From assembly GCA_030710605.1 (NCBI GenBank), contig CP092880.1, forward strand, positions 19,963,791 through 20,027,790: a DNA stretch of 64,000 bases, in the 5' to 3' direction. The notes under the pieces are model-generated. The model was not told the DNA's origin. It saw only the letters and a list, made by a program, of their open reading frames with translations, and did not search any database. Positions 1 through 49,744 of this stretch are shown here, piece by piece. The position numbers and the translations under genes were made by a program. Source of the stretch: Cordylochernes scorpioides. Taxonomy: Eukaryota; Arthropoda; Arachnida; Pseudoscorpiones; Chernetidae. The stretch's first letter is position 1. Each line of letters opens with the position of its first letter.

Positions 1-2117
1 AGGACCAGTCGGCATCAAAGCCACCGCGGCCATGTTAAAATGACACCGGTTGCAGCGGCGTCAGGTTAACATGACACCTCCAATTTCAATAGGCCTGTAT
101 CTTTGGCACAGCAGAATGCTAGATTTTCGTGTCCAAATAACTTACCAGATTAAAACGGATAGGAAAGATATATAAAATTCCTTTTATAGCAAATCTTATT
201 TTTATAAGGTTATCGATCCTTTAAATGACATCATATGAGACGCCATATTATACCATCGTAAAAAGACGATTAAATACCCAAAATGGCGCCCATCGCCACG
301 ACAATGTTCCAATCTTCAACACTCTTCACTGTCAATCATTCAATTATATGACTTTTGGGTACGCTTTTAATATGAACAAACACAACATTACCGGCTCATT
401 CGTTAGGAATAAAAAATAATTTAACCTCTCATTTCTCCATATGTAACGCAATGTTACATGGAAAAAAGATCTGTTAAATTAATATTTTAAATGATTTTTC
501 CCAAGCGTAACAAGCCGGCGTTTGGGTAGGCTCACCTAAAAATTTTGCAGACCAAACTGCATAAAACGCTCTGCAATCTTTTTAGCGCCTAAGACATGCA
601 CTAAACACTTCATGTATCCAAAGTCCCCATCTTCCACTACACTACAGCATTTTTAGGGATCAAGATCGCTCCCCGTCTGGTCTCACATAATATAATCGGG
701 AAGATCTGGCATAGACCAACTTCTCAGACCGGACCAAAGCGACATAGGGCCACATTGCCTCCCCATAGGTCAAACTAAAGACACCAATAATCTTGGACCT
801 ACACCTAGACCTTGTGTGAATATGTTCCTTTCTTTTTTTTTCAGGAACGAATATTTTTGTTTTCTTTTAACTTTTCTTCAAAAGAGACATTTTTTGTTCC
901 ATTTGTTTATCTAATCATTAATAACCTTTAATTATATTATATTTTTTTGTATAAAATCTTGAATAATTATTTTTTTTAATTTTTTTTTTTACTTTTCAAT
1001 TATAATCAAATTTTTATTCCAACATTATTTTAACAACTTTATTTTAACAATGGCAAAACAGTTAATTCTTTCAATAATCATTTTAATTCATTATTATATC
1101 TTTTATATATTACTAATTCTCATTATTATATCTTTTATATTTTACTAATTCATTATTATATCTTTCATATAGTACATGTTTGATCTTATCCACTTATACT
1201 TTTTTTATCCACAATCACATTTTTATCTTTTTATTCACTATATTTTTGTTTAATTACTTTATTATATGACAATGTTGGTTTATCATCAACTATCGGGCAT
1301 ATACAACAATCGTTTACAACAATCTATTTCTCTAACCACTTCAGTGTACTTTACACTACTATCTTTCTCTCCGCCATTGCTTCACATCAACGTAGAGAAA
1401 CGACAGTACTGCTTGACAATTTTTCTTTTGATTTCGTAATTCAACAAACTCTTTGAAAACACCGTTCCCCAGAAGTACAAGTCTCGACTTTTTGGTCTGA
1501 ACACGTTTCAAAAGTTTATTTCAATCATCCGCAGAACACATCACCAACGCATGCACAGAGCGTTCACTTTTTTCAACTTTCAATTTTTTTCAGCTCTAGC
1601 GGACCACAATCAACCTTTGATTTCAAGTCAAGTCAGACCACCTACTGTCGCTACAACAATTCTACGTATCACATGGCTCTACCACCCCTTTCAATCATAT
1701 TAATTCTTTTCTTCAACTTTTTAACCCAATAACCCTACAATTGTGACAAAGCACTGTAACCTTATACAGGATCACAGGTGAAACATTGCCTAGGAAGACG
1801 CACAAGTCTATATCCTCGCTTTGCACCTGGACCTAAGTATTTGATTGTCTGTGCAACACTTACAATTGCATATTCTTCAACCCCTAACCCTTTCCAACGC
1901 CCGCCAACAATCTTTTAGAACATCATTTTTTATCATCATTATTTTTTAGCAAACAAAGGTTTTATCTACAGTTCTCTTTTATAATGAATATCATAACTTT
2001 TAAATTAAACATAAGTTTTATTTTGATAATTTTCAGATATATTCAAATAAACATCTTGTTATAGCCCTTTTTCCCTCACAGTTTTAATTAATTAAAAGAA
2101 ATTTTAATTACTTACCT
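1..2117. other. AT-rich noncoding DNA, no gene seen
   Basis: No convincing coding region, TE protein or RNA gene is visible. The longest reading frame (225-419) is short and unlike any family I know. Between about 830 and 1260 the sequence is strongly A/T-biased with repeated short motifs around TTCATTATTATATC. A less AT-rich patch lies at about 640-800. Confidence 0.5.
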
Positions 2118-6204: not shown

Positions 6205-6515
6205 CAAAATACAATAAACCAGTTAGTTTTCCATTGGCAAGGATGTATAGATTCGAATGGTTTTATTCTTATTAATAGTTTTAAAAATTACCGCCAAAAA
6301 ACGGCAATATTTTTTGCACGAACCTAATATGTTGATAAACAATATATAATTGACTATGCGCAAATTTATTTTTAAAAAATCTGCAAGTCATTTTTATAAT
6401 TTTAATCAAGAAATCCATGTGTAATGGTGTAGATTAAGAAAATGCTTCGAAATCTCATTTCGTTGTTTTAAAGAAAAATGAATTGAGAGACGTAATCGAA
6501 ACTATATCTTACATA
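6205..6515. other. noncoding flank of the mariner copy
   Basis: AT-rich sequence in which no gene is seen. The part up to about 6330 probably holds the mariner 3' untranslated region and terminal repeat, but I could not pair it with a left inverted repeat. Confidence 0.4.
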
Positions 6516-6691
6516 GTCGGTGGATGAGAGGGTAACACGCTCGATTCCCGACAGTCATGAACTGGGATTGAATCCCGCGTTAAAAATTGTTTAATATGTG
6601 AATAACCTTCACATATTATTCACTGTTTCAATTATCATGAACTAGGTTGCTCTTGCTGAGTGGTACCTATTAATGTGAATTTGAACCAGAA
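6514..6691 (+). mobile_element. tRNA-derived SINE (family 1, LINE-tailed)
   Basis: The head carries a pol III A-box-like TGGATGAGAGGG and a B-box-like GGGATTGAATCCC. It is followed by a linker (TTTAATATGTGAATAACC) and the family tail CTAGGTTGCTCTTGCTGAG. Flanks CTATATCTTACA (left) and CTATATCCTACA (right) form a 12-bp target duplication with one mismatch, so this is an independent retroposition event. Confidence 0.8.
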
Positions 6692-6939
6692 TCTATATCC
6701 TACATTTTATTTACATTATGTACATTTTGGAAGGATCTCCTAACAACAAAGTCTTTCTCCAGGTATTTAGGGAATCTTCATTCAGGGCGACCGTTTAATG
6801 AGGTTGAAGCTCTCCTGGGTAAGAGGTCTGGGATAGCAGGATGACCAGTACCGGTGGATCAGCCTCAGACCACTGGACCAACAGCCCATGAAGGATTATA
6901 GAGCAGAGGTCGGATGTGCAGAAGGAGATAAGGCTAGAC

Positions 6940-17339: not shown

Positions 17340-17724
17340 TTGAGTCTGAAGAGTCAAAAATTACAATTTACAAAATTTCAAAGTTTTTAAAGAGCCACAA
17401 TTTTTTTTATTGCCAACAATAAATAGTACTCGTATAAATAAGGTTTCCATATATACGAGTATTACACGTAGTTCACATCCAAACAGCCGCATGTGGAAAG
17501 AGTCGGTGGACGAATGGTTAAAACCCTCGATTTCCGACACTATGAACCGGGATCGAATCCCGCATTGGACCCTTTTTTATAATAAGTGAATAACCTTCAC
17601 ATTTTATTCGTTGTTGTAATATAATAATTAGGTTGCTCTATTTGAGTGGCACCTAGTGAAGTTAATTTGGAACAAGCAAGCCGAATGTGGCTTGCGAGAC
17701 GCAGGTTGCCAACCCCTGGTCTAG
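17340..17724 (-). mobile_element. hAT-type MITE interrupted by a SINE
   Basis: Inverted copy of the 6940 MITE. The left part matches its 3' region (TTACAAAATTTCAAAGTTTT) and the right end is GGTTGCCAACCCCTG. A family-1 SINE has inserted inside it. The left terminus is degenerate, so its target duplication cannot be confirmed. Confidence 0.75.
17497..17678 (+). mobile_element. tRNA-derived SINE (family 1) nested in a hAT MITE
   Basis: The A box (TGGACGAATGG) and B box (GGGATCGAATCCC) are followed by the tail TTAGGTTGCTCTATTTGAG. AGCCGCATGTGG (17485-17496) and AGCCGAATGTGG (17679-17690) form the target duplication. Confidence 0.82.
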
Positions 17725-20952: not shown

Positions 20953-21130
20953 TGTACACTGCTTAGCCCGATTTTTCTACAAGTAAAAGTTTAATTAATG
21001 GACATTTATAAAATACTAGCCGAATGACCTGGGCAACACCCGGGTTTTACCCTATTAAATGTTTTTATTCAAATAGTATTCGTAACAATTATAAATTGGC
21101 GCCGTAAATGTCACTCTTGTGAAACGTCCC

Positions 21131-21309
21131 ATAACAAGTCGTAGGACGAGTGGGTAACCCCCTCGATTCCCGACAGTCATGAACCGGGATTGAATCCCGC
21201 GTTAAAATTTGTTTAATATGTGATAACCTTCACATATTACACAATGTTCAATTATCATGAACTAGGTTGCTCTTGCTGAGCGGTACCTATTTATGTGAAT
21301 TTGAACCAG
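21131..21309 (+). mobile_element. tRNA-derived SINE (family 1), nest member 1
   Basis: A box GGACGAGTGGG, B box GGGATTGAATCCC, tail CTAGGTTGCTCTTGCTGAGC. Left flank GAAACGTCCC (21121-21130), right flank GAAACGTCCCGC (21310-21321). Confidence 0.85.
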
Positions 21310-21321
21310 GAAACGTCCCGC

Positions 21322-21505
21322 AAAAAAAAAAACAAATAAGTCGTAGGACGAGTGGGTAACCCCCTCGATTCCCGACAGTCATGAACCGGGATTGAATCCC
21401 GCGTTAAAAATTTGTTTAATATGTGATAACCCTCACATATACACAATGTTCAATTATCATGAACTAGGTTGCTCTTGCTTTAGCGGTACCTATTTATGTG
21501 AATTT
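21322..21505 (+). mobile_element. tRNA-derived SINE (family 1), nest member 2
   Basis: Nearly identical to member 1 but begins with an A-rich run (21322-21337) before GTCGTAGGACGAG. Flanks GAAACGTCCCGC at 21310-21321 and 21506-21517. Confidence 0.85.
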
Positions 21506-21517
21506 GAAACGTCCCGC

Positions 21518-22764
21518 ATCAAAACAATTAACAGGAGGCATCTTCTTTGACATCTCCAAGGCATTTGAACAAGTTTGGCACGAGGCCCTTTTGTATAAAA
21601 TGGTAAAAAAGAACCTACCTGGAGACATCATCCGAATGACAAAAAGCTTCCTTTGTGACAGAAACTTTAGAGTAAAAGTCAAAGATGTTCTGTCAACCCC
21701 AAGGAAAATTCGAGCAGGAGTCCCTCAAGGGTCAGTCATCGGCCCCACCTTCTTCATATTTTTATTGATGACTACCCTTGCCCCAAAGGAATGTCCCTAC
21801 ATCTATCGCAGACGACGCCGCAACTCTAGTCTCAGCCTTCAACTTCGATACCATCTATCTCAAACTTCAAGAAGCACTGGTATTCGTTAATATTTGGTGC
21901 GGACGAATGGCGGGTTGAATTGAACCCACAAAAAACCGAAGCTATACTCTTCTCAGACAAAAGACTAAAAGTGAAGAAGCCCTTAGAAGATCTAGGCTTC
22001 CCTGATGAATCCATAAAATGGAAGGACAGCGTCCGCTACCTGGGCGTCATCCTTGATCAACACCTGACCTTCAAGAACACGTGCAAAACCGAATAAACCT
22101 CGCAAAAGCAGCCCAGCACCGACTAGCACTATTTTTAGGGAACAAGAGCAAACTATCCCTACACTGCAAACGTACCATATACACGTCTATTATAAGACCA
22201 ATCCTAACTTACGGCCACCCAGTCTTCATAACCGCAAACAAAACTACACTGAAAAAATTCGAAAGTTTCGAAAACCAGGTATTAAAGAAAATAATAGGGG
22301 CCCCATGGTTTGTCAGAAGTAGTATCATCAGAAAGGACCCTCGATTTAGAAAATATAAATGATTTCATAATAAAACAAGCTTTCAACTTTTACGATAAAT
22401 CTGAAAATCTCGAAAATATTACATTCAGAGAAGCCTGTAACTACAAACAAGAACTGAAGAGAAGGAAACCAAAGCCAAGGCAACTCCTATATCGATTGAG
22501 AACAAATGTAGAAAAATGGAAAAATCTAAGAAAAACACGTTAAAGAAAAATAATAAATAAATAATAAATAAAAAAATAACAAAACATATTTGAAAAGAGA
22601 ACACAGCCGATTTAAAGACCGCGCGCCAGGCTCTAACCTTGTAGAGATGTGAATACCCTGTCAATGTGAAGAACGTGTACATATAATTCATTGTTAATAT
22701 CATAAGCTAGGTTGCTCTTTTTGAGCGGCACCTAATAAAGTTATTTTTGAACTGAAACTGAACT
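21518..22764 (+). mobile_element. Jockey-type LINE, 5'-truncated copy (nest member 3)
   Basis: It starts within the reverse transcriptase palm (GGIFFDISKAFEQVWHEA), includes AGVPQGSVIGP, and runs in broken frames to the C-terminus at 22543 and a 3' UTR ending CACCTAATAAAGTTATTTTT. The YADD-type catalytic motif falls in a frameshifted stretch. It is bounded by GAAACGTCCCGC on both sides. 5' truncation is normal for LINE integration. It is almost identical to the 3' part of the next copy, so the two insertions are close relatives. Confidence 0.85.
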
Positions 22765-22817
22765 GAAACGTCCCGCAAACGGCAGGAACAGAAAAGAGCC
22801 AACGAAACCAAGAAATC

Positions 22818-24021
22818 ATGGATGAAACCCAAGTTGCATCAGAAGCCACCAACACCAACTTCACAACCCCAGATACTCGGTAGGCACACGAAAATATTAT
22901 ATCTGGAAATTGCCAGAATGCCCGAAAATGAAGAACGAAGAAGACTCCAAAGCTATGAAAAATTTCTGTAGCTCTGTTGAAAGCACCTTCGCTGAGCTAA
23001 TAAATTTCCTCGACTTCTATGAAAAAGAACTAAAAGAAACTCGTTCAGAATTTGTTGAAAACACAAGCAAAGCTCCTTTGAAGCGCCCGAGAGTAACATC
23101 CCCAGAAGCCATAAAAGAATCACATGCCACGCAAAATATTGCCTGGTGTCCCAAACAGATTTCAAGAGTTCCCACATACTCTAAACCAACATAAAAAAAT
23201 AAACAGCCAGAAAAACCACAAGCTAAAGAGAAAATCGATATGGAAATCGAAGTCACTCCAAATAGAACTCAAATCCTAAACAGAACCCTAAAAAATCGAA
23301 CCCGCCTAACAAAGACACGGAAAACCCAGATAAAGGACCTAACAACCCTACCCCTAACCCAAAAATAAGAATACCACCGATCAAAATCAGTGGGGTAACT
23401 GAATGGTCTGGACTAAGAGAAGGACTCATTAACTGCACGCAGAAAAAAACCTGAATTCTCCACATCTGGGCGCCACATAAACGTCCAGACTCATTCGGTG
23501 ACGGACTACCGCACAGCAACCAGGTGGCTAGAAAAACGTCACTACACATTCCATTTTAAAATACTTGACGAAGAAAAGAACCTCAGAATTGTAGTCAGGG
23601 GCCTCGACTGCTGCATTACGATTCCTGAAATCCAAGAGGACTTAGAAAACAAGGGATTTTATATGACAAAAATTGTCAGACTACGCAGGGCGGGAACAAA
23701 GGAAGAGCTCCCACTAATCCAGGTTACTCTTCCCAAAACGCCTAAGAACAAAGATATCTACAACATAACGGATATCTGCGACATGAAGTGCCGAGTCGAG
23801 GCCTATAGGGCCCCCAAAGGTCCAGGCCAATGTCACAGATGTCAAAACTTTGGACATTCAAAGTTTGAATGCAGAGAAACCTCCAAATGTGTCAAGTGCG
23901 GAGAGAACCATTTCACCTCCGAATGCTCTAAACAAAAAGAAGTCCTACCAAAATGCGCTAACTGCCAGGGTCAGCACACGGCCAACTGGCGTGGCTGTCC
24001 ACTCTACAAAAAAAATAAATA
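22818..24021 (+). pseudogene. Jockey LINE ORF1 (gag-like, PRE_C2HC plus zinc knuckles)
   Basis: ATG at 22818 opens the protein. Frame changes near 22880 and 23190-23490 break it. The C-terminal part (23498-24021) is intact. It has the domain preceding the zinc fingers that typifies Jockey gags (VVRGLDCCITIPEIQEDL, VTLPKTPKNKDIY), then CHRCQNFGHSKFEC, CVKCGENHFTSEC and CANCQGQHTANWRGC. ORF1 proteins bind LINE RNA and form the ribonucleoprotein. Confidence 0.85.
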
Positions 24022-24264
24022 AAGATATACCCAGTCAAAAGAACCCACGCCCTAATGCACAAAAAGAACCTTCCAAGGTACCCATCAATGCAAAAATCCC
24101 TCAAACCACAGGAAATAAGGAAAAAACCTGCGCAAACCAACCTAAAAGTATTCCCCTGAAAACTCCAAGCAAAGCCCCATCGAGAGTGCCATCGAAAAGG
24201 CTCTCAGCGATCCAAAGATCATTGCCACCATAGTGAGGAACGTTCTCGCCACCATAGGTTCTCA

Positions 24265-26960
24265 ATGAACGCAAAAGACAAAAAGAATAAACTCCGAATC
24301 ATTCATTGGAACGCATGTAGCCTTCGGAATAAAAGGCAACAATTCACTGAATTTCTGAACGACCACGACATAGACATAGATTTAATTTCCGAAACCTGGC
24401 TCAAACCCTGTCACAGGATGAACATCCCCAACTACAACACCGTTCGGAATGACAGACTGTCTGGACAGGGCGGAGGCACAGCAATTTTCATCCATAAGAA
24501 ATATTACTGTGTTCCCATCCAAAGCACTTGCCTGAATTTGGAAACCACAGGAATAACAATCAAAGACAAAAATGGAACAACAATGAACATATACTCCTGC
24601 TACAAGCCCCCAAACACGCCTCTTGACCCAAAGGACATCTACAATATATTCAAAACCAACACTCCAACAATCCTAGCCGGAGACCGCAACTGCAAGAATC
24701 CAACCTGGGGTTCATTCTCCGCCAATCCAAATGGCAAGATCCTACAAAAGGTTGTCGAATTCCTCAACCTGGATTTAAGCTACCCAGATGAACCGACACA
24801 TGACTCACCACCCGACATCTTGGACATCGCAATCCACAAAAATCTGAGTCAGACCGTTCACTCAAAAGTCCTCCACGAGATGACGTCTGATCACCTTCCC
24901 AGTCCTTCTAATATTACAAGACTATAATATAACCCGCTCCGACACAACAATCAAAATCATCGACTGGGCCCTCTTTAAGTACCAAATGGAAAACACCCAA
25001 CCCCCAGCGCACACCGCAGAAACTCCGCAAGAAATAATCGACTCCATAGCTTCCATTGAGGACCAAATCATTCAAAATCTACAAAAGTCCACAAAATATA
25101 AAGAACAAGACCTCGATAGAAAGTATCCAGCCCACATCAAAGAAAAATTACGAAAAACTAACAGACTAAGAAAAAAACTGAAAGAAACTTGCGACCCCAA
25201 CGACAAAAAAGCGTACATTTCCGCACGAAGAGAATCACAAAAACTTACTAGAGAAAACGACAACACCAGCTGGGACACCTACATAGAAAACCTTGACGTA
25301 TCTGATCAGACAGTATGGAAGGCCATTAGACGCCTCACAGCCCCAAAGAAAGAAGAAATTATCGTGAAAACCAATAACAATCTGACACTAACAGCCGAGG
25401 AGGCAGCTGAAGCACTTGCTGACTCCTATGAAAAGCAGCTCAGCCCAAATCCTCCTACCTCCTTATATTCGAACATATATCTGAACAAAAGAATCACCGC
25501 ACACCTCCAAACAAACAACAAAACAGCTCTGGAACCCACTAACATTGGAGAAATCAAAGCAATAATTGACACCTTCCCTAAGAAAAAAGCCCCAGGCATC
25601 GACGGAATCACGAACGAAGCGCTAAAACTACTGCCCAACCATATTCTCGAATCACTAACCAGCACTTTTAATGCCTCATTGAAACTCGCATACTTCCCGA
25701 ACAATTGGAAAACATTGATTATTTGTCCCATACCAAAACAAGGTAAATCAAAGTACGACCCAGCAAGTTATAGACCCATTTCCTCCTACCTGTCACCTCC
25801 AAACTATTCGAAAGGAATCATTTTAAGAAGAATAAAAAAAGCACTCAGCGACGAACATCCCCTCAGGCCCGAACAATTCGGGTTCCAGCAAAAACACTCA
25901 CCCTTCATCAACTTGTGGTCGTCACGGAGAAGATAAGAAAGGCCATGGAATCAAAACAATTAACAGGAGGCATCTTCTTTGACATCTCCAAGGCATTTGA
26001 CAAAGTTTGGCACGAGGCCCTTTTGTATAAAATGGCAAAAAAGAACCTACCTGGAGACATCATCCGAATGACAAAAAGCTTCCTTTGTGACAGAAACTTT
26101 AGAGTAAAAGTCATAGATCTTCTGTCAACCCCAAGGAAAATTCGAGCAGGAGTCCCTCAAGGGTCAGTCATCGGCCCACCTTCTTCAATATTTTTATTGA
26201 TGACTACCCTTGCCCCAAAGGAATGTCCCTACATCTATACGCAGACGACGCCGCAACTCTAGTCTCAGCCTCAACTTGATACCATCTATCTCAAAACTTC
26301 AAGAAGCACCGGTATTCGTTAATATTTGGTGCGACGAATGGCGGATTAATTGAACCCACAAAAACCGAAGCTATACTCTTCTCAGACAAAAGACTAAAAG
26401 TGAAGAAGCCCTTAGAAGATCTAGGCTTCCCTGATGAATCCATAAAATGGAAGGACAGCGTCCGCTACCTGGGCGTCTCCTTGATCAACACCTGACCTTC
26501 CAAGAACACGTGCAAAACCGAATAAACCTCGCAAAAGCAGCCCAGCACCGACTAGCACTATTTTTAGGGAACAAGAGCAAACTATCCCTACACTGCAAAC
26601 GTACCATATACACGTCTATTATAAGACCAATCCTAACTTACGGCCACCCAGTCTTCATAACCGCAACAAACTACACTGAAAAAATTCGAAGTTTCGAACA
26701 CCAGGTATTAAAGAAAATAATAGGTGGCCCCTTGGTTTGTCAGAAGTAGTATCATCAGAAAGGACCTCAATTTAGAAAATATAAATGATTTCATAATGAA
26801 ACAAGCTTTCAACTTTTACGATAAATCTGAAATCTCGAAAATATTACATTCAGAGAAGCCTGTAACTACAAACAAGAACTGAAGAGAAGGAAACCAAAGC
26901 CAAGGCAACTCCTATATCGATTGAGAACAAATGTAGAAAATGGAAAAATCTTAAGAAAAA
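24265..26960 (+). pseudogene. Jockey LINE ORF2 (AP endonuclease, reverse transcriptase)
   Basis: The endonuclease domain is open at 24265-24927, with WNACSLRNKR, SETWL, GGGTAIFI, a GDRN motif where GDFN is usual, and SDHLP. After a frame change the reverse transcriptase begins (24986-25936: KKKAPGIDGITNEAL, LIICPIPKQGK, ASYRPIS). It continues shifted (25915-26262: GGIFFDISKAFDKVWHEA, AGVPQGSVIGP) and then as C-terminal pieces to about 26960. YADD can be read only in a neighbouring frame at about 26237. Together these domains nick the target and copy the RNA in place. The protein is non-functional here. Confidence 0.87.
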
Positions 26961-27195
26961 ACACGTTAAAGAAAAAAAAATAAATAAATAAAAAATAAAA
27001 GAACATATTAGAAAAGAGAACACACCGATTTAAAGCCTGCGCGACAGGCTCTAACCTTGTAAAGATATGAATACCCTGTCAATGTGAAGAACGTGTACAT
27101 ATAATTCATTGTTAATATCATAAGCTAGGTTGCTCTTTTTGAGCGGCACCTAATAAAGTTATTTTTGAACTGGAACTGAACTGGAAACGTCCCGC

Positions 27196-27377
27196 ATAAT
27201 AAAAGTCGGTGGACGAGTGGGTAAAACCCTCGATTCCCGACAGTCATTAACCGGTATTGAATCCCGCGTTAAAATTTTGTTTAAAATGTGAATAAACTTC
27301 ACATATTAACAACTGTTTCAATTATCATGAACTAGGTTGCTCTTGCTGAGCGGTACCTATTAATGTGATTTGAACCA
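27196..27377 (+). mobile_element. tRNA-derived SINE (family 1), nest member 5
   Basis: GTCGGTGGACGAGTGGG head, a B box with one change (GGTATTGAATCCC), tail CTAGGTTGCTCTTGCTGAGC. Flanks GAAACGTCCCGC at 27184-27195 and 27378-27389. To its right the Helitron sequence resumes. Confidence 0.85.
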
Positions 27378-27980
27378 GAAACGTCCCGCTCCAAACTGTC
27401 TGATAAGCGATATTATTATAGAGAGATGATCTGGCTTTGTGTCTTCTGCTCGAATGAATGTTTTTCTGTTAGAATTTTGTCCCTACATACTAAAAATAAA
27501 CTGGCTTCACCCGTGGTCTCTGCTTTTTGGAATTTTTCCCGATATGATTTTGTATCTGATAATCAAATATGATACAGAAATATTGTCATCATAATTTTTA
27601 AACTAAAAAACAACTATTTATGCCCAGAATCTGTCAATTTCAATTTTTCTTGGCTAAAAATACGATAAATATCTCTTCCAGATTTTTCTCTACGTCCTGT
27701 GTTAAAACACGTTTTACATGTACATTAGGTCAACTGATATTATCTCCCATCTTTACCGCTAGAGGCGCTACTTGCGAGCGAAAGGGCAAATTTGCAACGC
27801 AATTTGCAAATAACTCGAAGAATATTCGGGATAGAGACCTGAAATTTTCACTATAAGTTTTTCCAGATTCTACTATATATACTGTTAAAATTCCAGTCAG
27901 ATTAGTTACGTATTGTGGACGTGTATAGCCGACATAGGAACAAACACACATACATACACTGACTTTTATAAATATAGGGA

Positions 27981-28274
27981 TTATTTTCGGGGCAAACATT
28001 CACTCCTTACTGAATCTATTCTTGTCCAAGTTTGATGTCACTGTTCTTCACCAAAAGTACTGGATAAACAATCGGCAAATTTTGCACATAAGTAGTTGAA
28101 TATTATAGATTAGCATATAAGCAATTCAAAGACTATAATTAGACATAAAAAACATTTTGCATATTTTGTAGTTATAAAATTATTATTATTATTGTTGGAG
28201 AATAATAACAAACATAGATCTATCTTGGACAAGAATAGATTCAGTAAGGAATTGATGTTTGCCCCGAAAATATT
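27981..28274. repeat. foldback element, ~48-bp inverted arms
   Basis: Left arm TTATTTTCGGGGCAAACATT and onwards (27981-28028) is complementary to 28226-28274. The centre is AT-rich and noncoding. The left arm directly follows the Helitron's 5' terminus. A DNA-transposon relative without coding capacity is likely, family unknown. Confidence 0.6.
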
Positions 28275-34866: not shown

Positions 34867-35264
34867 ATGATGTCTGGCGATTCCTTCTTTTGTAAAGATT
34901 TAGATAACTCTTTCCTCTTTCTTTACCCTGATGCTATTAGCTCTCTATGTGGTTTAGGATGGGGGGATTTAACCCTCTCTCTCTATCTATCCTGGCTGGA
35001 AACGAGTGAGTGACCTTGGGTGTGGGGGCAGGTTAGGGCGTGCAGTTGGAGAAAGCTGACCGCGCGGAGAGTGCTGCTACCAAGATTGGAGCACCCACAG
35101 CTACTTTAGCCGTGTATACTTAGCAAGGCACAACTCTAAATCTACTTGGATTTTGATTTTTTTTTTTTTACTTTGAAAACAAAGCTTTGATTCTCCCTCT
35201 CTCCTTTTTTTTTTTTCTTTTCCTTCTTCAAGAAAGTCTCAAGTTTTATTCTCCTTTGAAAACA
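34867..35264 (+). promoter_or_regulatory. presumed promoter and 5' UTR of the UBR gene
   Basis: A GC-richer island (about 34970-35110) followed by a pyrimidine-rich leader directly before the start codon. No TATA box at a convincing distance. Position is the only strong argument; transcription start is not determinable from the sequence. Confidence 0.35.
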
Positions 35265-38200
35265 ATGAATTCTGATTCGTTTATTTTTCGAGACATCGTC
35301 ACAGAGTGGATTGAGAAGTTTGACGAACAGAGGCTCCGCTTGGTTGACTTTCAAGAATTTTGGGGCCGCAATGTACCCCGTATCTACAGTCCCACGTTCG
35401 AAGCAGACTGTCTGAACCTGGTTTACGATGAAGCCTTGGGACAGAAGCTACTGTATAACTCCCTGGAGCAGTTCATCTCCAAGTCCGAGGACCCCGCACC
35501 TGTCCTTGAACACCTCAAGGTTCTCGATAACCCACCGACGCTATGCGGCCGCGTCTTAAAAGTGGGAGAGGCGACGTATTACTGTCGGGACTGCGGGATG
35601 GACGCGAACTGTGTTCTCTGCAGCGACTGTTTCAAGAACAGCGCCCACAAGAACCACAAGTACAAGATGAACACCAGTGGCGGGGGCAGGATCTGTGATT
35701 GCGGGGATGAGGGAGCCTGGAAGCAGCTCCCCTTTTGCCAGACTCACCAGGAAGCAAAATTGAAAAGTTTAGAAGATGATGACCCTCTAAACCGTATCCC
35801 CAAAGACTTGGTCGACCGTGTGAAGTTCGTGTTGGAAGCCGTGCTCAACTACTGTAATGAATTGCTCACGATGACCAATTCTCTGACGCTGCCAAAGTAC
35901 CTGCAGGCACCCTCCCCAAGGCCGAATGTGTTTGCCACGGTGATCTATAACGACGAGGTTAACACCTACGAACAAGTCATTTACACGCTCAGCCGAGCCA
36001 TGAATTGCAACCAGAAGTCGGCGCTCGAATATTCCACCATGGTCGACCGAGAAGGTCGCAGCATCGTCTGGTGCTCCACCGAATCTAATTGCAAACAGCT
36101 CGCCGAGGCCATCGAGAAAATTTCTTCCCGCCACGGCAGCCGGCCACTCCGTGTACTCATATACCACGCCGATGTCATAGCCCACCAAAACTTCGCCCTC
36201 CGGCTGCTTTCCTGGGTGCAAAACTTCCTGGGCTACTCAGAGGGCTTCAGGATTATCTTCAAGGATGTGATCATGAAACCAGCCGACTTCCCTCTTCTTG
36301 AAAGCGTCATGCTGGGAGATATGCTCCTTTGGAAGTCGGCGCGCAACCAATGGCATCAGCTCTTCATTGCAAGTATGCATATAGAGAAGAATTGTAAGAA
36401 AACTTTCGCTAAGGTCTTTACGCGCAACTACCCAAGTTTGATGAAGGATTTCATCGCGGACGACCACGAGCACTCAGTCTCTATAATGTCCCTGTCAGTG
36501 CAGGTCTTCACCGTGCCGCTGGCCCTCGTCTTGATCGAGGAGGAAGACGCCCTCTCCATCATAATGCGTACCTTCCTCACCGAGTGCACGCGCTACCTCA
36601 ACACTGCGGGCAAACTCTCCTTCGAAAGAAACCACTACAACTCGTCCTTCAGGCGCGCTCACTATATACTCCGTGATCTCAAATATCTACTGACAGTCAG
36701 GCCCAACGAGTGGAACGACACCATGAGGGACAAATTCTTCAATGGCGTCCAGTCTCTCCTCCAACTTCTGACTATGATGCAGGGCATGGACACCGTGGTT
36801 CGCCAAGTAGGACAACACGTCGAATTCGAAGCCGAGTGGGAAACGGGCGTCGATCTTCAGCTTGAGCTGTTGGCGGCGATTACGCTTGTTTTGGAGTGGT
36901 GCAGCAGCGACTACAAGGTTTTTGAAAGGGTGCTTGCCCTAGCTCTGAGTGAGTTGGAGAAGCTCCAGGAAAAGTTCAAATATGTGACTGCCAAACTCTT
37001 GGGACACTCCGCCTCCTGTATTGACTACGACGTCTCCTCTTTGCCAGTAACTATACACGTGCCCCTCTCCCGGTTCGTGGCAAGTCTCATCCACCTCCGG
37101 AGATTTAACTTTCAAAATACGCCTTCCTCTTCCTTTGAAATTATCCAAAAAGAAGCATCCATCGTGCGTCTCATGGAACTACCTCTAAGGACACTTGTTC
37201 TTGCATCACAATTCCGTGCGGGCATGTGGCATCGCAACGGCTACTCACTTTTGAGCCAAGTGTTCTTTTACCAGAATGTCACACTGCGGGAGCAGATGTT
37301 CGACGTGGACATCCTCATGGTACAGCTCGCAGCGTCGCTCCTGGAGAGCAACACCTTCCTCATCCACCTACTGAGCAAGTACAAGCTGGTGCCGTGGGTG
37401 ATGGAAGACCCGGAGGAGGGCCCCGGCACCAACCTGGTGGCCACGCTGGCCGAAGAGTTCCTCACGCTAATCCTCTACGTCCTCTCGGAACGGTACGTGC
37501 CGGGCGTCGGGAGAGTCATCGACGAAAGGGCAAAGCTTAAAAAGGAAATCATCCAACTCCTCTGCATCGAACCAATGCCCCACAGCCAGCTCTTCACACT
37601 CCTCCCGAAGGATATCCACTACGAAACGGGCATGGATCACGTTATTAATGAAGTAGCCGATTTCAAGCAGGTCAAATTCAAAGGGAGGTACGAGCTGAAG
37701 CCCGAGTTGTACCAGGAGTTCAATCCGTACTTCTACCACTATTCCCGGGAGGAACAGTCCAAGGCGGTGGAGGCCCAGATCAGAAGGAGACGTCAGAATG
37801 GGGAGGAGGAGTGCTGCCCGCCCCCGCTGCTGGTGGAGTTTTCACCCAACTTCGCCCCCCTCGTGCAGATCCTCCAGTGCGACGTGATGCTGCACATCCT
37901 GAACCACACCATCCAAAGAGCACTCAATCCCAACAACAGCTGCTATTATTCCGAAAGCCAATTCGAAAAAGTGATCTACCTAATCGGGATGGCTTTGCAC
38001 GAAGAAACGAGGTATTTTGAAAAAGATAACGCCTCCCCATTTTTCAAGTTTACAGAAAAGACAGGGAAACTCTTTGAAGATCTTGAGAAGTGTTTAACGT
38101 TCCTCAAACTTGAGAATCAGAAAGACCTCCTCAAGTGGGTTCTCAGAAAATACAAAGCTCTCGAAGTTATAAAAGCGAAAAAGGATGACGAGAAAGAAAA

Positions 38201-40535
38201 AGCTGCAGAGGCTATTTCTTCGCTGCAAGAACAAGTTTCAGAACGCGAAAAGTTTCGCAGGAAAAATGCCGCGCTTGCCGCTGCTCGCAGGGAGAGAATC
38301 ATGTCCCGGATGGCAGCCATGCAGAAGAACTTCATGTCAGAGAACGAAGAACTTTTGAAGGCGGTTGTGTCGGAGCAGGTGACCCCGTCCAGCGAAGTGT
38401 CTTCTATGGTGGCCAAGGATGACGACCCAGTGGCCGTGGGCAGCAACCAGCGCGGCAGGGTGTGTGCGAGCAATAGGCAAACGTGTATTCTGTGTCGGGA
38501 AGAACAGGACGTTACGACGTCCGAACATTCCCTGGTCATCGCGGCCTTTGTTCAGCGGTCTACGGTCCTGTCCAAGAACCGCAACCACTCCCTCGAAGCC
38601 ATCCGCAGCTCCGACCCGCTCTTCCTCCACTCCGACCTCTGCTCCGGCCCGCACGTCAGCACCTGCGGCCACGTGATGCACAGTATGTGCTGGCAACACT
38701 TCTTCGATTCTGTCCAGATGAAGGAACAGAGGCGACCCATCCAGGACGGCCGCAACAACAGCTACGACGTGGATAAGAACGAATTTCTTTGTCCCCTGTG
38801 CGAAAGGCTAAGCAACGGCGTGATTCCTCTCACTCCCTCCATAAATAGCATTGCCGATAACTCCATCCCACCTCCCTTCCCCTTCGATGATTACGTTGCG
38901 GTCTTGAAGAAAGTAGTCGATTGTATAGAAAAGGACGATATTATGAAGTACGCAACAGATGAAGATGAGGAAGGGGCTTCGAGCAAACTTCTAAGTTGTA
39001 AAATGCCTAAACTCGAGGACCTTGCGACGGACGCAATCCAATTGAAATGTCTCCAAGACGTCTTCATCCCACCCGGACCCAGTGTAGAGGCCCTACCCTA
39101 CCACGAGACTCTGGTGAAGATTATTGCTCTATTTTCCCATGTTACGTTTTCGGTGGGTCTGAGCATCGAACGGCCCACCCACTTTGACCCAAAGATACCC
39201 TTGATGGCGTGGCAAGCTTGCATCTTTACCATCCTGTCGATGGAGTGGAGCCTCAGGGATCAGCGCAAGCCAGTGTTCGGAGACCTCTCTTCTCGCCAGG
39301 AACATTGCCTCGAGGCGATCATCAAACTCTCAGCTTCCAGCTTGCGTCTCTATGAAAAACTTCTTATCAGAAGCCATGCTTCCCGGCTACTCTGCTACCT
39401 CCTCTCACCTGAAATTTACGAAGCACATAGCTTGAGCTGCCTCGACGTTGACGCCTTTTCAATAGCAGTTTCACTTTCCCTCTTGCTTCCAAGTTTGTTC
39501 GAAAGAGAAGATGATCGAATCAGCAATATTCCCTTGGGCCACTCTCTCGATAGTTGTTCCCTACAGCTGGCTTTTTCTCTCCACTTAGTCCAATTGCTGT
39601 TGACTCTGGAGTGCGAATCCGACATAGAGATGCTTGATGAAGCTTCCACCTTATCTTTAACGGAGAAGGAACAAGAGGAAGAAGCGAGCCTGGAAGCTTT
39701 GTATCACAAAATAACGAACGAATTGAAGACCCAACCCCAGCAATTCTCAAAAGGCTACCTCCGTCAAAGGGTGCGGTCCGGATCGCTGCCATTCCTACGG
39801 TGTTGCGCCATCTACTACCATTTCTTGACCGATGTCGCCCCGCCAGCAAAGATGAAGCAGCTCAGTTCCTCAGATGACGCGGAATTCGACGCCCTCTGCC
39901 ACTACCTCGGTCTTCCGCTCTACCTGCACGAGATCTTCGACTCCCCCAGCCTCCACCAGCTAGCGATGACCTGGATCAAGCACCCATCGCTTGCCAAACG
40001 TCTGCAGGCAGACCAGCCGTCCTCCGAAGTGATCGTACGCCAGCCGCTGGCCGTCAACCAGCTCATCAACCTCCCAGCTGACTACAGCGAACTGATCAAC
40101 CAAGCTTCAAACTTCAGTTGCCCAAAGAACGAAGAGGGCGACTGCCTCTATCCCGCTATGTGTCTGGTATGTGGAGATGTCCTCTGTTCCCAGAGCTACT
40201 GCTGCAAACACGTCCTGCCATCCGGGGGCGGACTTGTTGGAGCGTGCACCCACCATTCGTACGGGTGCGGTGCCGGGGTGGGGTTGTTCCTGCAGGTACG
40301 CGACTGCAAGGTGCTCTTGCTTGCCGGGAAGACCAAGGGATGCTACCTGTCACCGCCCTACGTGGACGAGTACGGAGAGACGGACCAAGGACTCATGCGA
40401 TGCAATCCTCTTCACCTGAGCCTGGAGCACTACCGGACGCTGCATCGTCTCTGGCTGAACCACGAGCTGGCGGAGACCATCGTCCACAAGATGGAACAGT
40501 CAAACGTGTCCTCCACCAACTGGCAGCACGTGTAG
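35265..40535 (+). CDS. UBR1/UBR2-type E3 ubiquitin ligase (N-recognin), intronless
   Basis: The product recognises destabilising N-terminal residues and ubiquitinates the protein for proteasomal breakdown (Arg/N-degron pathway, cytosol and nucleus). Domains in order: UBR box at residues 94-161 (Cys94, 107, 110, 116, 119, 122, His128, His131, Cys144, 146, 158, His161; CDCGDEGAWK) for basic N-termini; ClpS-like N-box at about 219-300 (VIYNDEVNTYEQVIYTLSRA) for bulky hydrophobic N-termini; long helical scaffold; Lys/Arg-rich coiled segment at about 965-1040; RING from Cys1074 to Cys1179; C-terminal cap from Cys1619, ending NWQHV. At 1756 residues it matches human UBR1 and UBR2 in length. I chose ATG 35265 (A at -3) because upstream codons to 35187 lack an ATG and encode a low-complexity leader. 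The frame has no intron or lesion, and its codons are GC-rich in an AT-rich setting. UBR1 versus UBR2 cannot be decided. Confidence 0.96.
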   Translation: MNSDSFIFRDIVTEWIEKFDEQRLRLVDFQEFWGRNVPRIYSPTFEADCLNLVYDEALGQKLLYNSLEQFISKSEDPAPVLEHLKVLDNPPTLCGRVLKVGEATYYCRDCGMDANCVLCSDCFKNSAHKNHKYKMNTSGGGRICDCGDEGAWKQLPFCQTHQEAKLKSLEDDDPLNRIPKDLVDRVKFVLEAVLNYCNELLTMTNSLTLPKYLQAPSPRPNVFATVIYNDEVNTYEQVIYTLSRAMNCNQKSALEYSTMVDREGRSIVWCSTESNCKQLAEAIEKISSRHGSRPLRVLIYHADVIAHQNFALRLLSWVQNFLGYSEGFRIIFKDVIMKPADFPLLESVMLGDMLLWKSARNQWHQLFIASMHIEKNCKKTFAKVFTRNYPSLMKDFIADDHEHSVSIMSLSVQVFTVPLALVLIEEEDALSIIMRTFLTECTRYLNTAGKLSFERNHYNSSFRRAHYILRDLKYLLTVRPNEWNDTMRDKFFNGVQSLLQLLTMMQGMDTVVRQVGQHVEFEAEWETGVDLQLELLAAITLVLEWCSSDYKVFERVLALALSELEKLQEKFKYVTAKLLGHSASCIDYDVSSLPVTIHVPLSRFVASLIHLRRFNFQNTPSSSFEIIQKEASIVRLMELPLRTLVLASQFRAGMWHRNGYSLLSQVFFYQNVTLREQMFDVDILMVQLAASLLESNTFLIHLLSKYKLVPWVMEDPEEGPGTNLVATLAEEFLTLILYVLSERYVPGVGRVIDERAKLKKEIIQLLCIEPMPHSQLFTLLPKDIHYETGMDHVINEVADFKQVKFKGRYELKPELYQEFNPYFYHYSREEQSKAVEAQIRRRRQNGEEECCPPPLLVEFSPNFAPLVQILQCDVMLHILNHTIQRALNPNNSCYYSESQFEKVIYLIGMALHEETRYFEKDNASPFFKFTEKTGKLFEDLEKCLTFLKLENQKDLLKWVLRKYKALEVIKAKKDDEKEKAAEAISSLQEQVSEREKFRRKNAALAAARRERIMSRMAAMQKNFMSENEELLKAVVSEQVTPSSEVSSMVAKDDDPVAVGSNQRGRVCASNRQTCILCREEQDVTTSEHSLVIAAFVQRSTVLSKNRNHSLEAIRSSDPLFLHSDLCSGPHVSTCGHVMHSMCWQHFFDSVQMKEQRRPIQDGRNNSYDVDKNEFLCPLCERLSNGVIPLTPSINSIADNSIPPPFPFDDYVAVLKKVVDCIEKDDIMKYATDEDEEGASSKLLSCKMPKLEDLATDAIQLKCLQDVFIPPGPSVEALPYHETLVKIIALFSHVTFSVGLSIERPTHFDPKIPLMAWQACIFTILSMEWSLRDQRKPVFGDLSSRQEHCLEAIIKLSASSLRLYEKLLIRSHASRLLCYLLSPEIYEAHSLSCLDVDAFSIAVSLSLLLPSLFEREDDRISNIPLGHSLDSCSLQLAFSLHLVQLLLTLECESDIEMLDEASTLSLTEKEQEEEASLEALYHKITNELKTQPQQFSKGYLRQRVRSGSLPFLRCCAIYYHFLTDVAPPAKMKQLSSSDDAEFDALCHYLGLPLYLHEIFDSPSLHQLAMTWIKHPSLAKRLQADQPSSEVIVRQPLAVNQLINLPADYSELINQASNFSCPKNEEGDCLYPAMCLVCGDVLCSQSYCCKHVLPSGGGLVGACTHHSYGCGAGVGLFLQVRDCKVLLLAGKTKGCYLSPPYVDEYGETDQGLMRCNPLHLSLEHYRTLHRLWLNHELAETIVHKMEQSNVSSTNWQHV

Positions 40536-42786: not shown

Positions 42787-43864
42787 TGAGAGGACACTCA
42801 CGCTAGAGGACACCTCTATAAAGGACAGTTTTCATCACCAATACAGTAGAACAAGCTCCGTGAGAGGACACTCACGCTAGAGGACACCTCTCTACAAAGG
42901 ACAGTTTTCATCACCAATACAGTAGAACAAGCTCCGTGAGAGGACACTCACGCTAGAGGACACCTCTCTACAAAGGACAGTTTTCATCACCAATACAGTA
43001 GAACAAGCTCCGTGAGAGGACACTCACGCTAGAGGAAACCTCTCTACAAAGGACAGTTTTAATCACCAATACAGTAGAACAAGCTCCGTGAGAGGACACT
43101 CACGCTAGAGGACACCTCTCTACAAAGGACAGTTTTCATCACCAATACAGTAGAACAAGCTCCGTGAGAGGACACTCACGCTAGAGGAAACCTCTCTACA
43201 AAGGACAGTTTTCATCACCAATACAGTAGAACAAGCTCCGTGAGAGGACACTCACGCTAGAGGAAACCTCTCTACAAAGGACAGTTTTTTCATCACCAAT
43301 ACAGTAGAACAAGCTCCGTGAGAGGACACTCACGCTAGAGGACACCTCTCTACAAAGGACAGTTTTCATCGCCAATACAGTAGAACAACCTCCATGAGAG
43401 GACACTCACGCTAGAGGAAACCTCTCTACAAAGGACAGTTTTTTCATCACCAATACAGTAGAACAAGCTCCGTGAGAGGACACTCACGCTAGAGGACACA
43501 CCTCTACAAAGGACAGTTTTCATCGCCAATACAGTAGAACAAGCTCCGTGAGAGGACACTCACGCTAGAGGACACCTCTCTACAAAGGATAGTTTTCATC
43601 ACCAATACAGTAGAACAAGCTCCGTGAGAGGACACTCACGCTAGAGGACACCTCTCTACAAAGGACAGTTTTCATCGCCAATACAGTAGAACAACCTCCA
43701 TGAGAGGACACTCACGCTAGAGGACACCTCTCTATAAAGAATAGTTTTCATTTGCAAAATTACCATTTTTACTATTTATAAACTATCCCGTAAGAGGACA
43801 CCTCTCCCTAAAGGACACTTTGGCTCTGCAATTAGGTGTTGTCCTTTACAGAGAGGTAGCACTG
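42787..43864 (+). repeat. 76-bp tandem array built from the end of a pogo-like MITE
   Basis: About 12-13 units. Each unit has CAGTAGAACAAGCTCCGTGA, GAGGACACTCACGCTAGAGG, ACACCTCTCTACAAAGGACA and TTTTCATCACCAA. Units differ at few positions (GGACACC or GGAAACC, CATCACC or CATCGCC). The last unit (from about 43683) leads into a complete MITE interior and right end (43840-43864). So the left ~76 bp of one MITE has been multiplied in place, while the rest stayed single. Confidence 0.92.
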
Positions 43865-44163
43865 TATTCACATGAATATATCTTAGTTTTTACCTTTTAT
43901 TGAATTTTAGATATATATAAATGTACATAATTTTAGGTTGCTAGCTTTTCTGCAAGATATGTAGACAGACAGACATGGGAGCAAGTTAAATAAAAGCTTT
44001 TTAAAAGGTACAATGTCTCAAAAAAGATTCAAAATATTTTAAAGCTAGGACAAACTATATAGATTAACATAAAAGTCATTCATTCAAAGCCTAAAATTGG
44101 TGCATATTTTGAATTAGAAAAATGATCAGAAAGACCCAACGACATCAATATAAATTGTAAATG

Positions 44164-44256
44164 AACAAACCCTGTACATCCCCCACAGTATATTGTAAAT
44201 ATGATGATATAGGTTGCTCTTTTTGAGCGGTGGCACCTAATAAAGTTATTTGGAAC
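44164..44256 (+). mobile_element. LINE 3' tail fragment
   Basis: CCTGTACATCCCCCACAGTA is followed by ATAGGTTGCTCTTTTTGAGC and ACCTAATAAAGTTATTTGG, matching the 3' end of the Jockey LINE at 27100-27180. Confidence 0.65.
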
Positions 44257-44278
44257 TTGATCAGAAATGAACAATAAA

Positions 44279-44448
44279 GTCGGTGGACGAGTGGGTAACA
44301 CCCTCTATTCCTGACAGTCATGAATCGGGATCCCACGTTAACATTTTGTTTAATATGTGAATAACCTTCACACATATTATTCATTGTTGCAAATATCATA
44401 AACTAGGTTGTTCTTGTTGAGTGGTACCGAATAAAGTGATTTTGGAAC
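44279..44448 (+). mobile_element. tRNA-derived SINE (family 1)
   Basis: GTCGGTGGACGAGTGGGTAA head, a damaged B box (six bases lost near 44330), tail CTAGGTTGTTCTTGTTGAG. Confidence 0.75.
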
Positions 44449-44479
44449 AGCGAATAGCGTGATCAGAATTAAGATAAGA

Positions 44480-48070: not shown

Positions 48071-48841
48071 CTTTATATATATATAAATCAGTGTATGTAT
48101 GTATGTGGGTATCTATGTCGGCTATACACGTCCACAATACGTAACTAATCTGACTGATATTTTAACAGTATATAGAGTAGAATCTGTAAAAACTTATAGT
48201 GAAACTTCGAGGTCTTTATTCCGAATATTCTTCGAGTTATTTGCAAATTGCGTTGCAAATTTGCCTTTTCGCTCGCAAGCAGCGCCTCTAGCGGTGAAGA
48301 TGGGAGGTAATATGAGCTGACCTAATGTATATGTAAAACGTGTTTTGACAGGACATAGAGAAAAATCTGGAAAAAATATTTATCGGATTTTTAGCCAATA
48401 AAAAATAAAATTGACGGGTTCTGGGCAAAAATAATTGTTTTTTTAGTCAGAAAATTATGATCACAATATTGCTGTATCATGTTTGATTATCAGATACAGA
48501 ATTATATCGGGAAAAATTCCAAAAAGCTGAGACCACGGGTGAAGCCAGTTCATTTTTAGTGTGCAGGAACAAAATTCTAACAGAAAAACATTCATTCGAG
48601 CAGAAGACACAAAGCTAGATCATCTCTTTATAAAAAATATCGCTTCTCTGACACAAAGTTTGGAGCGGGACAAAGCCAGATCATCTCTTTATAAAAATAT
48701 CGCTTCTCTGACACAAAGTTTGGAACGGGACGTTTCACAAGAGTGACATCCACGGCGCCAATTCATAATTGTAACGAATAGTATTTGAATAAAAACATTT
48801 AATCGGGTAAAACCTGGGCGTTACCCGGGTCATTCGGCTAG
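48071..48841 (+). mobile_element. non-autonomous Helitron (family A)
   Basis: 5' region TATATATATAAATCAGTGTA, GTCGGCTATACACGTCC landmark, 3' hairpin (CCTGGGCGTTACCCGGG) and CTAG at 48838-48841. Holds an internal ~69-bp tandem duplication (about 48598-48730). The retroelement target site at 48725-48736 (ACGGGACGTTTC) is uninterrupted. Confidence 0.82.
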
Positions 48842-48843
48842 TA

Positions 48844-49743
48844 TCCCGATATATATAGAAGTCAGTGTATGTATGTGTGTTTGTTCCTATGTCGGCTATA
48901 CACGTCTCTCCACAATACGTAACTAATCTGACTGAAATTTTAACAGTATATAAAGAAGAATCTGGAAAAACTTATAGTGAAAATTCCAGGTCTCTGTCCC
49001 GAATATTCTTTGAGTTATTTGCAAATTGCGTTGCAAATTTGCCCTTTCTCTCGCAAGCAGCGCCTCTAGCGGTGAAGATGGGAGGTAATATCAGCTGACC
49101 TAATGTACATGTAAAACGTGTTTTAACAGGACATAGAGAAAAATCTGGAAGAGATATTTAATGGATTTTTGGCCAAGAAAATTTGAATTTGACGGGTTTT
49201 GGGCAAAAATAGTTGTTTTTCAGTCAGAAAATGATGACGACAATATTGCTGTATCATGTTTGATTATCAGATGTAAAATTATATCGGGAAAAAATCCAAA
49301 AAGCAGAGACCACGGGTGAAGCCAGTTCATTTTTAGTATGCAGGAACAATATTCTAACAGAAAAACATTCATTCGAGCAGAAGACACAAAGCCAGATCAT
49401 CTCTCTATAAAAATATCGCTTCTCAGACACAAAGTTTGGAGCTGGACGTTTCTGGTTCAAATCACATTAATAGGTACCGCTCAGCAAGAGCAACCTAGTT
49501 CATGATAATTGAACAATGAATAATATGTGAAGGTAACACATATTAAACATATTTTAACGCGGGATTCAATCCCGGTTCATGACTGTCGGGAATCGAGGGG
49601 GTTACCCACTCGTCCACCGACTTATATGCTGGACGTTTCACAAGAGTGACATCCACGGCGCCAATTTATAATTGTAACGAATAGTATTTGAATAAAAACA
49701 TTTAATCGGGTAAAACCCGGGCGTTGCCCGGGTCATTCGGCTA

Positions 49744-49744
<1 letters not shown>
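48844..49744 (+). mobile_element. non-autonomous Helitron (family A) carrying a SINE
   Basis: Starts TCCCGATATATATAGAAGTC only two bases after the previous Helitron's CTAG, and ends with the CCCGGGCGTTGCCCGGG hairpin and CTAG (49741-49744). A family-1 SINE is inserted at the same site used in the 21-28 kb Helitron. Confidence 0.87.
49453..49627 (-). mobile_element. tRNA-derived SINE (family 1) in the recurrent Helitron site
   Basis: Antisense to its host Helitron. The target duplication is GCTGGACGTTTC (49441-49452 and 49628-49639), the same site as the complement of GAAACGTCCCGC in the 21-28 kb nest, with one substitution. Confidence 0.88.

Follow-up and report, generated by a model that had tools for sequence, protein, structure and literature searches.

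A ladder of five retroelements at one short site inside a Helitron of the pseudoscorpion Cordylochernes scorpioides

We analysed a stretch of 64,000 nucleotides from the pseudoscorpion Cordylochernes scorpioides (assembly GCA_030710605.1, contig CP092880.1, positions 19,963,791 to 20,027,790 of the forward strand; hereafter the window), in which copies of a long interspersed element (LINE) and of a short interspersed element (SINE) form a ladder inside a Helitron transposon. This ladder very probably arose by five sequential target-primed insertions at one preferred nick, which duplicates itself and has been dispersed by a Helitron family. In this ladder as well as at other loci, insertions at the same site and in the same orientation have differing junctions, and copies of the site stand between the elements.

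Architecture of the ladder

Five retroelements in plus orientation follow one another head to tail between 21121 and 27389, in the order SINE a, SINE b, a 5'-truncated LINE, a near full-length LINE and SINE c (Table 1), flanked on both sides by a single non-autonomous Helitron that reads antisense. The 12-bp site GAAACGTCCCGC is found exactly at 21310, 21506, 22765, 27184 and 27378, that is, between the elements of the ladder, and the leftmost copy has kept ten bases (GAAACGTCCC; 21121 reads GAAACGTCCCat). When up to two mismatches were allowed, the window gave nine matches to the site compared with a mean of 2.07 after shuffling, and nine or more were reached in 0 of 100 shuffles. The exact matches and this control bear out the first-pass annotation of the window, which had described five retroelements in one orientation, the site at these five positions and ten of its bases at 21121. 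Since copies of the site lie between the elements, we rejected a single insertion event with template jumps.

The site copy is 10 bp long for SINE a and at least 12 bp for the remaining elements of the ladder. By sequence count, about 7 bases are added before AAGTCG in SINE c and about 4 in the single SINE of a neighbouring Helitron, hel2, and the 3' tail lengths vary among elements. The truncated LINE (21518) is separated from the LINE at 22777 by 43 substitutions and 16 gap runs in 1253 alignment columns. The junctions bear on an alternative that we consider improbable, in which the ladder grew by tandem duplication, through unequal exchange between the 12-bp copies or between the elements, after one or two insertions. 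SINEs a and b, which are 96.6% alike and share derived bases, are the weakest case for separate insertion, and one could be a duplicate of the other, altered later at both junctions. However, the site copy is 10 bp and the 5' addition about 5 bases in SINE a, as against 12 bp and about 16 A-rich bases in SINE b, and seven alignment columns distinguish their 3' ends. Moreover, the ladder mixes two LINEs of unequal length with SINEs of two subfamilies.

Table 1. Positions of the ladder, of the Helitron copies and of other insertions in the window
Feature	Position	Strand	Basis
3'-terminal part of non-autonomous Helitron (hairpin, CTAGT end), broken 107 bp from its end	21014..21120	-	alignment to hel1, hel2
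Target-site copy 1, GAAACGTCCC, 10 bp	21121..21130	+	
SINE a, GTCGTAGG subfamily	21131..21309	+	
Target-site copy 2, GAAACGTCCCGC	21310..21321	+	
SINE b, GTCGTAGG subfamily, A-rich 5' addition, 3' end fused to GAAACG	21322..21505	+	
Target-site copy 3	21506..21517	+	
5'-truncated LINE, from part of reverse transcriptase to tail	21518..22764	+	96.0% to LINE at 22777
Target-site copy 4	22765..22776	+	
Near full-length LINE with frameshifts: zinc-knuckle ORF1, endonuclease, reverse transcriptase	22777..27183	+	frames, Pfam
Target-site copy 5	27184..27195	+	
SINE c	27196..27377	+	
Target-site copy 6	27378..27389	+	
Rest of interrupted Helitron	27390..27985	-	alignment to hel1, hel2
Solo SINE, duplication beginning GAAAC	6498..6700	+	
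Second stack: TGATCAGAAA (44123), LINE 3' fragment, TGATCAGAAA (44258), SINE 44277-44450, TGATCAGAA (44460)	44122..44468	+	
Helitron hel1, empty site 48725-48736 = GAAACGTCCCGT on minus strand	48074..48843	+	
Helitron hel2, single SINE 49453-49627 (minus strand) between GAAACGTCCAGC at 49441 and 49628	48844..49744	+	

Helitron copies in the window

The interrupted Helitron aligns at 90.5% identity with hel1 and at 92.8% with hel2. All three copies carry the 3' hairpin and the CTAGT end at the same end; the TC start can be read in the interrupted copy and in hel2 and is unclear in hel1. At about 710 bp, this Helitron is too short to encode Rep/helicase. The first-pass annotation had placed an uninterrupted site in hel1 and a SINE at the very same position in hel2. 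An empty homologous site is indeed present in hel1, but its sequence is one mismatch away from GAAACGTCCCGC; hel2 is filled at that position, but its site is a variant on both sides, with an A that is absent from every other sampled site except L158, a second copy of hel2 with the same variant A. As this variant lies on both sides of the SINE, the SINE was inserted after the mutation, in an event separate from the ladder, and tandem duplication cannot create such a variant.

The copies hel1 and hel2 (48074-49744) abut directly, head to tail. In hel1, a 60-bp tandem duplication is found at 48609-48731, and one of its breakpoints falls inside the insertion site. We set aside its reading as the footprint of a failed insertion, since the same breakpoint in L060, a copy on contig C1, makes a feature of a Helitron subfamily more likely.

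Use of the site across the genome

We searched the 2.62-Gb assembly (24 contigs; the window is on C18). The anchor was an exact match to the 18-base Helitron left anchor with the first nine bases of the site, with the reversed pattern as control. This anchored site occurs 21,510 times (reversed control 0); some anchors are locally repeated Helitron-like units, and therefore not all of them are separate Helitrons. Exact junctions between a SINE tail and the site number 93, on 22 of the 24 contigs, with 13 junction spacers (reversed control 0), three of them in the window, so that the survey proposed in the first-pass annotation finds the site used repeatedly. If SINEs had landed anywhere in the genome, the 21,510 sites would be expected to hold 0.04 of 10,000 or 4.1 of 1,000,000 insertions, compared with the 93 junctions counted, which include copies from later duplication. 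Among 36 regions fetched around SINE junctions, three represent a second copy of the window ladder and of hel2; of the remaining 33, the right side runs into Helitron in 32, and a lenient rule finds the Helitron left anchor in 27. Independent insertions thus recur at one position in different Helitron copies, as in a SINE hot spot within a mobile element. A further SINE-filled site, L075, came from the first search.

These counts could also be read as passive carriage, in which a SINE-bearing Helitron was copied and the filled sites are all copies of one insertion. Consistent with it, some loci have junctions in common and resemble copies, namely L139/L140, L163/L164, L169/L170 and a group of seven matches at 13.17-13.77 Mb of C20, one of which was read. 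Yet a single insertion is very hard to reconcile with 13 tail-to-site spacers in 93 junctions, with the variation of the 5' additions, of the SINE subfamilies and of the right-hand Helitron subfamilies, and with the variant base on both sides in hel2, and we regard this explanation as highly unlikely.

Several observations weigh against repeated insertion at a preferred site. Most sites are empty: among the first 100 anchors listed (C1, 0.35-14.5 Mb), 91 carry no insert, 90 of them by rule and L040 with one base changed, which means either a preference that is weak in absolute terms or only a brief period of activity of the elements. Five anchors are filled, four by a SINE (one of these by SINE and LINE) and one by a LINE; the others are one insert resembling a solo long terminal repeat (LTR) and three sites with a different right flank. 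Four of the five filled anchors fall in a stretch of 38 kb, two of them apparently copies of each other, and 5% is therefore not a genome-wide fill rate. The left anchor is out of view in 6 of the 33 regions, some of them with a rearranged left side. The enrichment is only bounded, at about 23-fold if there are a million SINEs and about 2,300-fold if there are ten thousand. Finally, the SINEs at 17501, 18368 and 44277 sit at other targets, so that the elements do not fall into a strictly site-specific class; the first-pass annotation had indeed called the preference not absolute.

An insert of another kind was observed at L026 (2545-4080), where 1.5 kb bounded by TG...CA, with CCGC on both sides, occupies the same Helitron site; this insert resembles a solo LTR and is unrelated to the LINE and the SINE.

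Other ladders and their growth

The five-step ladder of the window is the tallest among those observed. On C1, L077/L082 is a clean SINE and LINE ladder with three exact copies of the site. The 33 fetched regions contain three stacks, namely SINE and SINE in L154 (C17), LINE and SINE in L159 (C20), with different junctions for the two elements in each of these, and L149 (C15), whose two successive units (197 and 200 bp) have a common 5' addition and unusual bases, with 4 differences in an ungapped comparison. The L149 ladder clearly grew in part by tandem duplication, which counts against our reading as proof that such duplication occurs. Tandem duplication, which the first-pass annotation had raised as an alternative, thus explains part of L149 but is a poor fit for the window ladder, where the junctions differ.

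Beyond sequential insertion itself, we tentatively considered, as a rather unlikely extension, that sites already occupied are better targets than empty ones, in which case ladders on the more than 21,000 nick sites sown by Helitrons would grow by positive feedback. Any excess of stacks at filled sites hinges on the true fill rate: the chance of three stacks in about 31 loci is 0.002, 0.02, 0.12, 0.59 and 0.95 at fill rates of 0.43, 1, 2, 5 and 10%, respectively, where 0.43% is 93/21,510, a rough value since both are exact-match counts. The figure for stack excess is weakened further by the choice of loci, since the C15 ladder was fetched partly for its stacked-looking spacing and the C20 locus was one of seven. 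The three Helitrons of the window hold 0, 1 and 5 insertions, numbers that fit a doubling-site and a constant-rate model too similarly to tell the two apart (likelihood ratio 2.5).

The LINE, the SINE and a proposed mechanism

The LINE has a zinc-knuckle first open reading frame (ORF1), an APE-type endonuclease and a reverse transcriptase, in broken frames. Pfam domains are PRE_C2HC (PF07530) in ORF1, Exo_endo_phos_2 (PF14529), PF03372 and RVT_1 (PF00078). Across 20 aligned sequences, the endonuclease residues E43, D140, N142 and D209 are invariant, and N16, D187, S208 and H210 nearly so. Comparison with solved structures gave two matches, TRAS1 being the sole retrotransposon and not significant (E 0.25). 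No RNase H domain was detected in the five LINE pieces scanned, which come from a broken frame and cover its last part incompletely. The reverse transcriptase has close relatives in the same species, and several named protein matches are annotated as X-element transposon polymerase. The X-element belongs to the Jockey clade, in which a poly(A) 3' tail is usual. Here the tail consists of GAACT/GAAACT repeats that run into the target GAAAC, instead of poly(A), and we therefore leave clade membership aside and call the LINE Jockey-like.

The last 70-94 bp of the LINE and the SINE are alike at 75-83%, a shared 3' end as expected of a SINE that depends on this LINE. The two also have a 3' hairpin sequence in common; its 9 pairs show no compensatory change in 13 sequences, so that covariation does not test the fold. 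The shared end and the common hairpin sequence make shared machinery the plain reading. As for a tRNA-like SINE head, ARAGORN found no gene in the window and Rfam gave no match in 21100-21540; words resembling boxes A and B were picked out by eye only. The SINE 3' end had no match in viral contigs, nor did the Helitron site in viral and prokaryote contigs, collections from which records of the species' own genome are possibly excluded.

These features suggest the following mechanism. The Jockey-like LINE and the SINE with its common 3' end would share one machinery, in which the LINE endonuclease would nick the bottom strand between TGT and GAAACG. This nick would lie in a conserved site of a very abundant Helitron family, at a distance of about 110 bp from the Helitron 3' end. 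The GAAC-rich RNA tail may anneal to the GAAAC end of the nicked target, and the nick would prime reverse transcription of LINE or SINE RNA. A cut in the top strand 10-12 nt downstream would then duplicate 10-12 bp, and the site would survive. As the recognised stretch would lie inside the duplicated segment, each insertion would leave two usable sites, and later insertions would stack head to tail; for the five elements of the window we infer an order of events in this sense. The first-pass annotation had proposed either a preferred Helitron sequence or a regenerated nick, and the two together fit the evidence.

Side observations concern the same elements. The first ~42 SINE bases are repeated in L013 (about 591-1346, minus strand) as 14 separate matches in a row, and in L151, L162, L175 and L177 the SINE belongs to a subfamily whose head is doubled. 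P0168, a gene model on a different contig of this species, strings together pieces of this LINE family (reverse transcriptase; ORF1, endonuclease and reverse transcriptase; ORF1), a hint of further head-to-tail LINE copies. In another gene model, P0186, a Pif1-type helicase that is likely of Helitron origin is joined to the endonuclease and ORF1 of the LINE; this model probably represents neighbouring elements merged by annotation.

Targets away from the Helitron site

A second stack, at 44122-44468, consists of a LINE 3' fragment and a SINE flanked by TGATCAGAA(A), with random-pair p values of about 0.007 and 0.03 for the two duplications; stacking is thus not confined to the Helitron site. 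SINEs reported at 6514 and 17497 had been taken to have unrelated targets. This is correct for the one at 17501, but the duplication around the SINE at 6515, GAAACTATATCTTACAT / GAATCTATATCCTACAT, starts with GAAAC. We rejected GAAAC alone as a sufficient target: with 155 GAAAC sites in the window, the probability that five of seven insertions share a locus is about 4.5e-6 under an urn model. The model counts only the seven insertions at GAAAC, leaving out 17501, 18368, 44150 and 44277, and its figure is illustrative only, as the window was picked because it was odd-looking.

A second copy of the ladder in the assembly

The ends of the ladder recur at C18:19,896,491-19,902,568 on the other strand (L156/L157), 80-95 kb away, with identities of 100% and 99.4% over about 330 bp each and the middle unread. 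The spacing between the ends is about 6,060 bp in the second copy and 6,069 bp in the window. This copy may be the other haplotype placed in series, or a segmental duplication, possibly rearranged. It bears on the explanation that the ladder is an assembly artefact, with repeats mis-joined at the Helitron. The region is repetitive, the evidence comes from the assembly alone and a near-identical second copy could be a haplotype placed in series, all of which would suit an artefact. Nevertheless, finding the ends assembled twice at similar spacing argues against misassembly, assemblers do not join on twelve-base overlaps and shorter ladders are present on C1, C15, C17 and C20, so that we give an artefact almost no credence. 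The first-pass annotation had named a collapsed or mis-joined locus, seen in long reads, as a refuting outcome; the two ~330-bp stretches of assembly read here point the other way. Within 120 kb of C18 (19.896-20.013 Mb), the ladder ends and hel2 each occur twice, in different relative orientation.

Relation to known insertion hot spots

TRAS1 and R1 are site-specific non-LTR elements. SINE insertion hot spots were reportedly found by Cantrell in 2001 in mys, a retrovirus-like element; going by that account, mys resembles the Helitron as a dispersed element with positions that SINEs enter repeatedly, although the elements and the animals differ.

In cats, one report describes repeated insertion of CanSINE at existing SINE loci, which gives tandem arrays; the insertions are independent and their duplications overlap. 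Its authors invoke an L1-type motif for these intergenic loci (PMC4084570). Repeated insertion stacks SINEs in tandem in both cases, but here LINE and SINE copies are mixed at one 12-bp site inside a Helitron. By its title, El-Sawy and Deininger 2005 (cited in PMC12840619) deals with Alu elements inserted in tandem; unlike what that title names, the present ladder has five elements of two kinds. Utopia is introduced as a site-specific non-LTR element (PMC4640811) and, like Utopia, TRAS1 and R1, the LINE uses a repeated sequence as target, but its preference is not absolute, as seen from the SINEs at 17501 and 18368 and from the 91 empty anchors in 100.

No retroelement ladder in a Helitron was described in the literature surveyed, at the level of titles and the beginnings of abstracts. 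SINE hot spots and tandem insertion are already known in mammals, and the ladder therefore counts as a variation on a known phenomenon; new is the five-step mixed ladder at a site dispersed by Helitrons. Read as a record of repeated use of one nick, it illustrates how one transposon family spreads landing sites for another, and how insertion, besides unequal exchange, may start tandem arrays. The many filled and empty copies of one site within a single genome form a natural assay of how endonuclease, RNA tail and earlier insertions determine target choice.

Other features of the window

An uninterrupted frame of 1,792 codons at 35157-40535 encodes a UBR1/UBR2-like E3 ligase, which shows 97% identity to a Cordylochernes scorpioides protein. 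Compared with P0063, a second UBR1 of Cordylochernes, identity is 54% over 71%, so that the frame is possibly an old intronless copy. A 76-bp satellite occupies 42787-43751, with 12.7 copies that are 95% alike.

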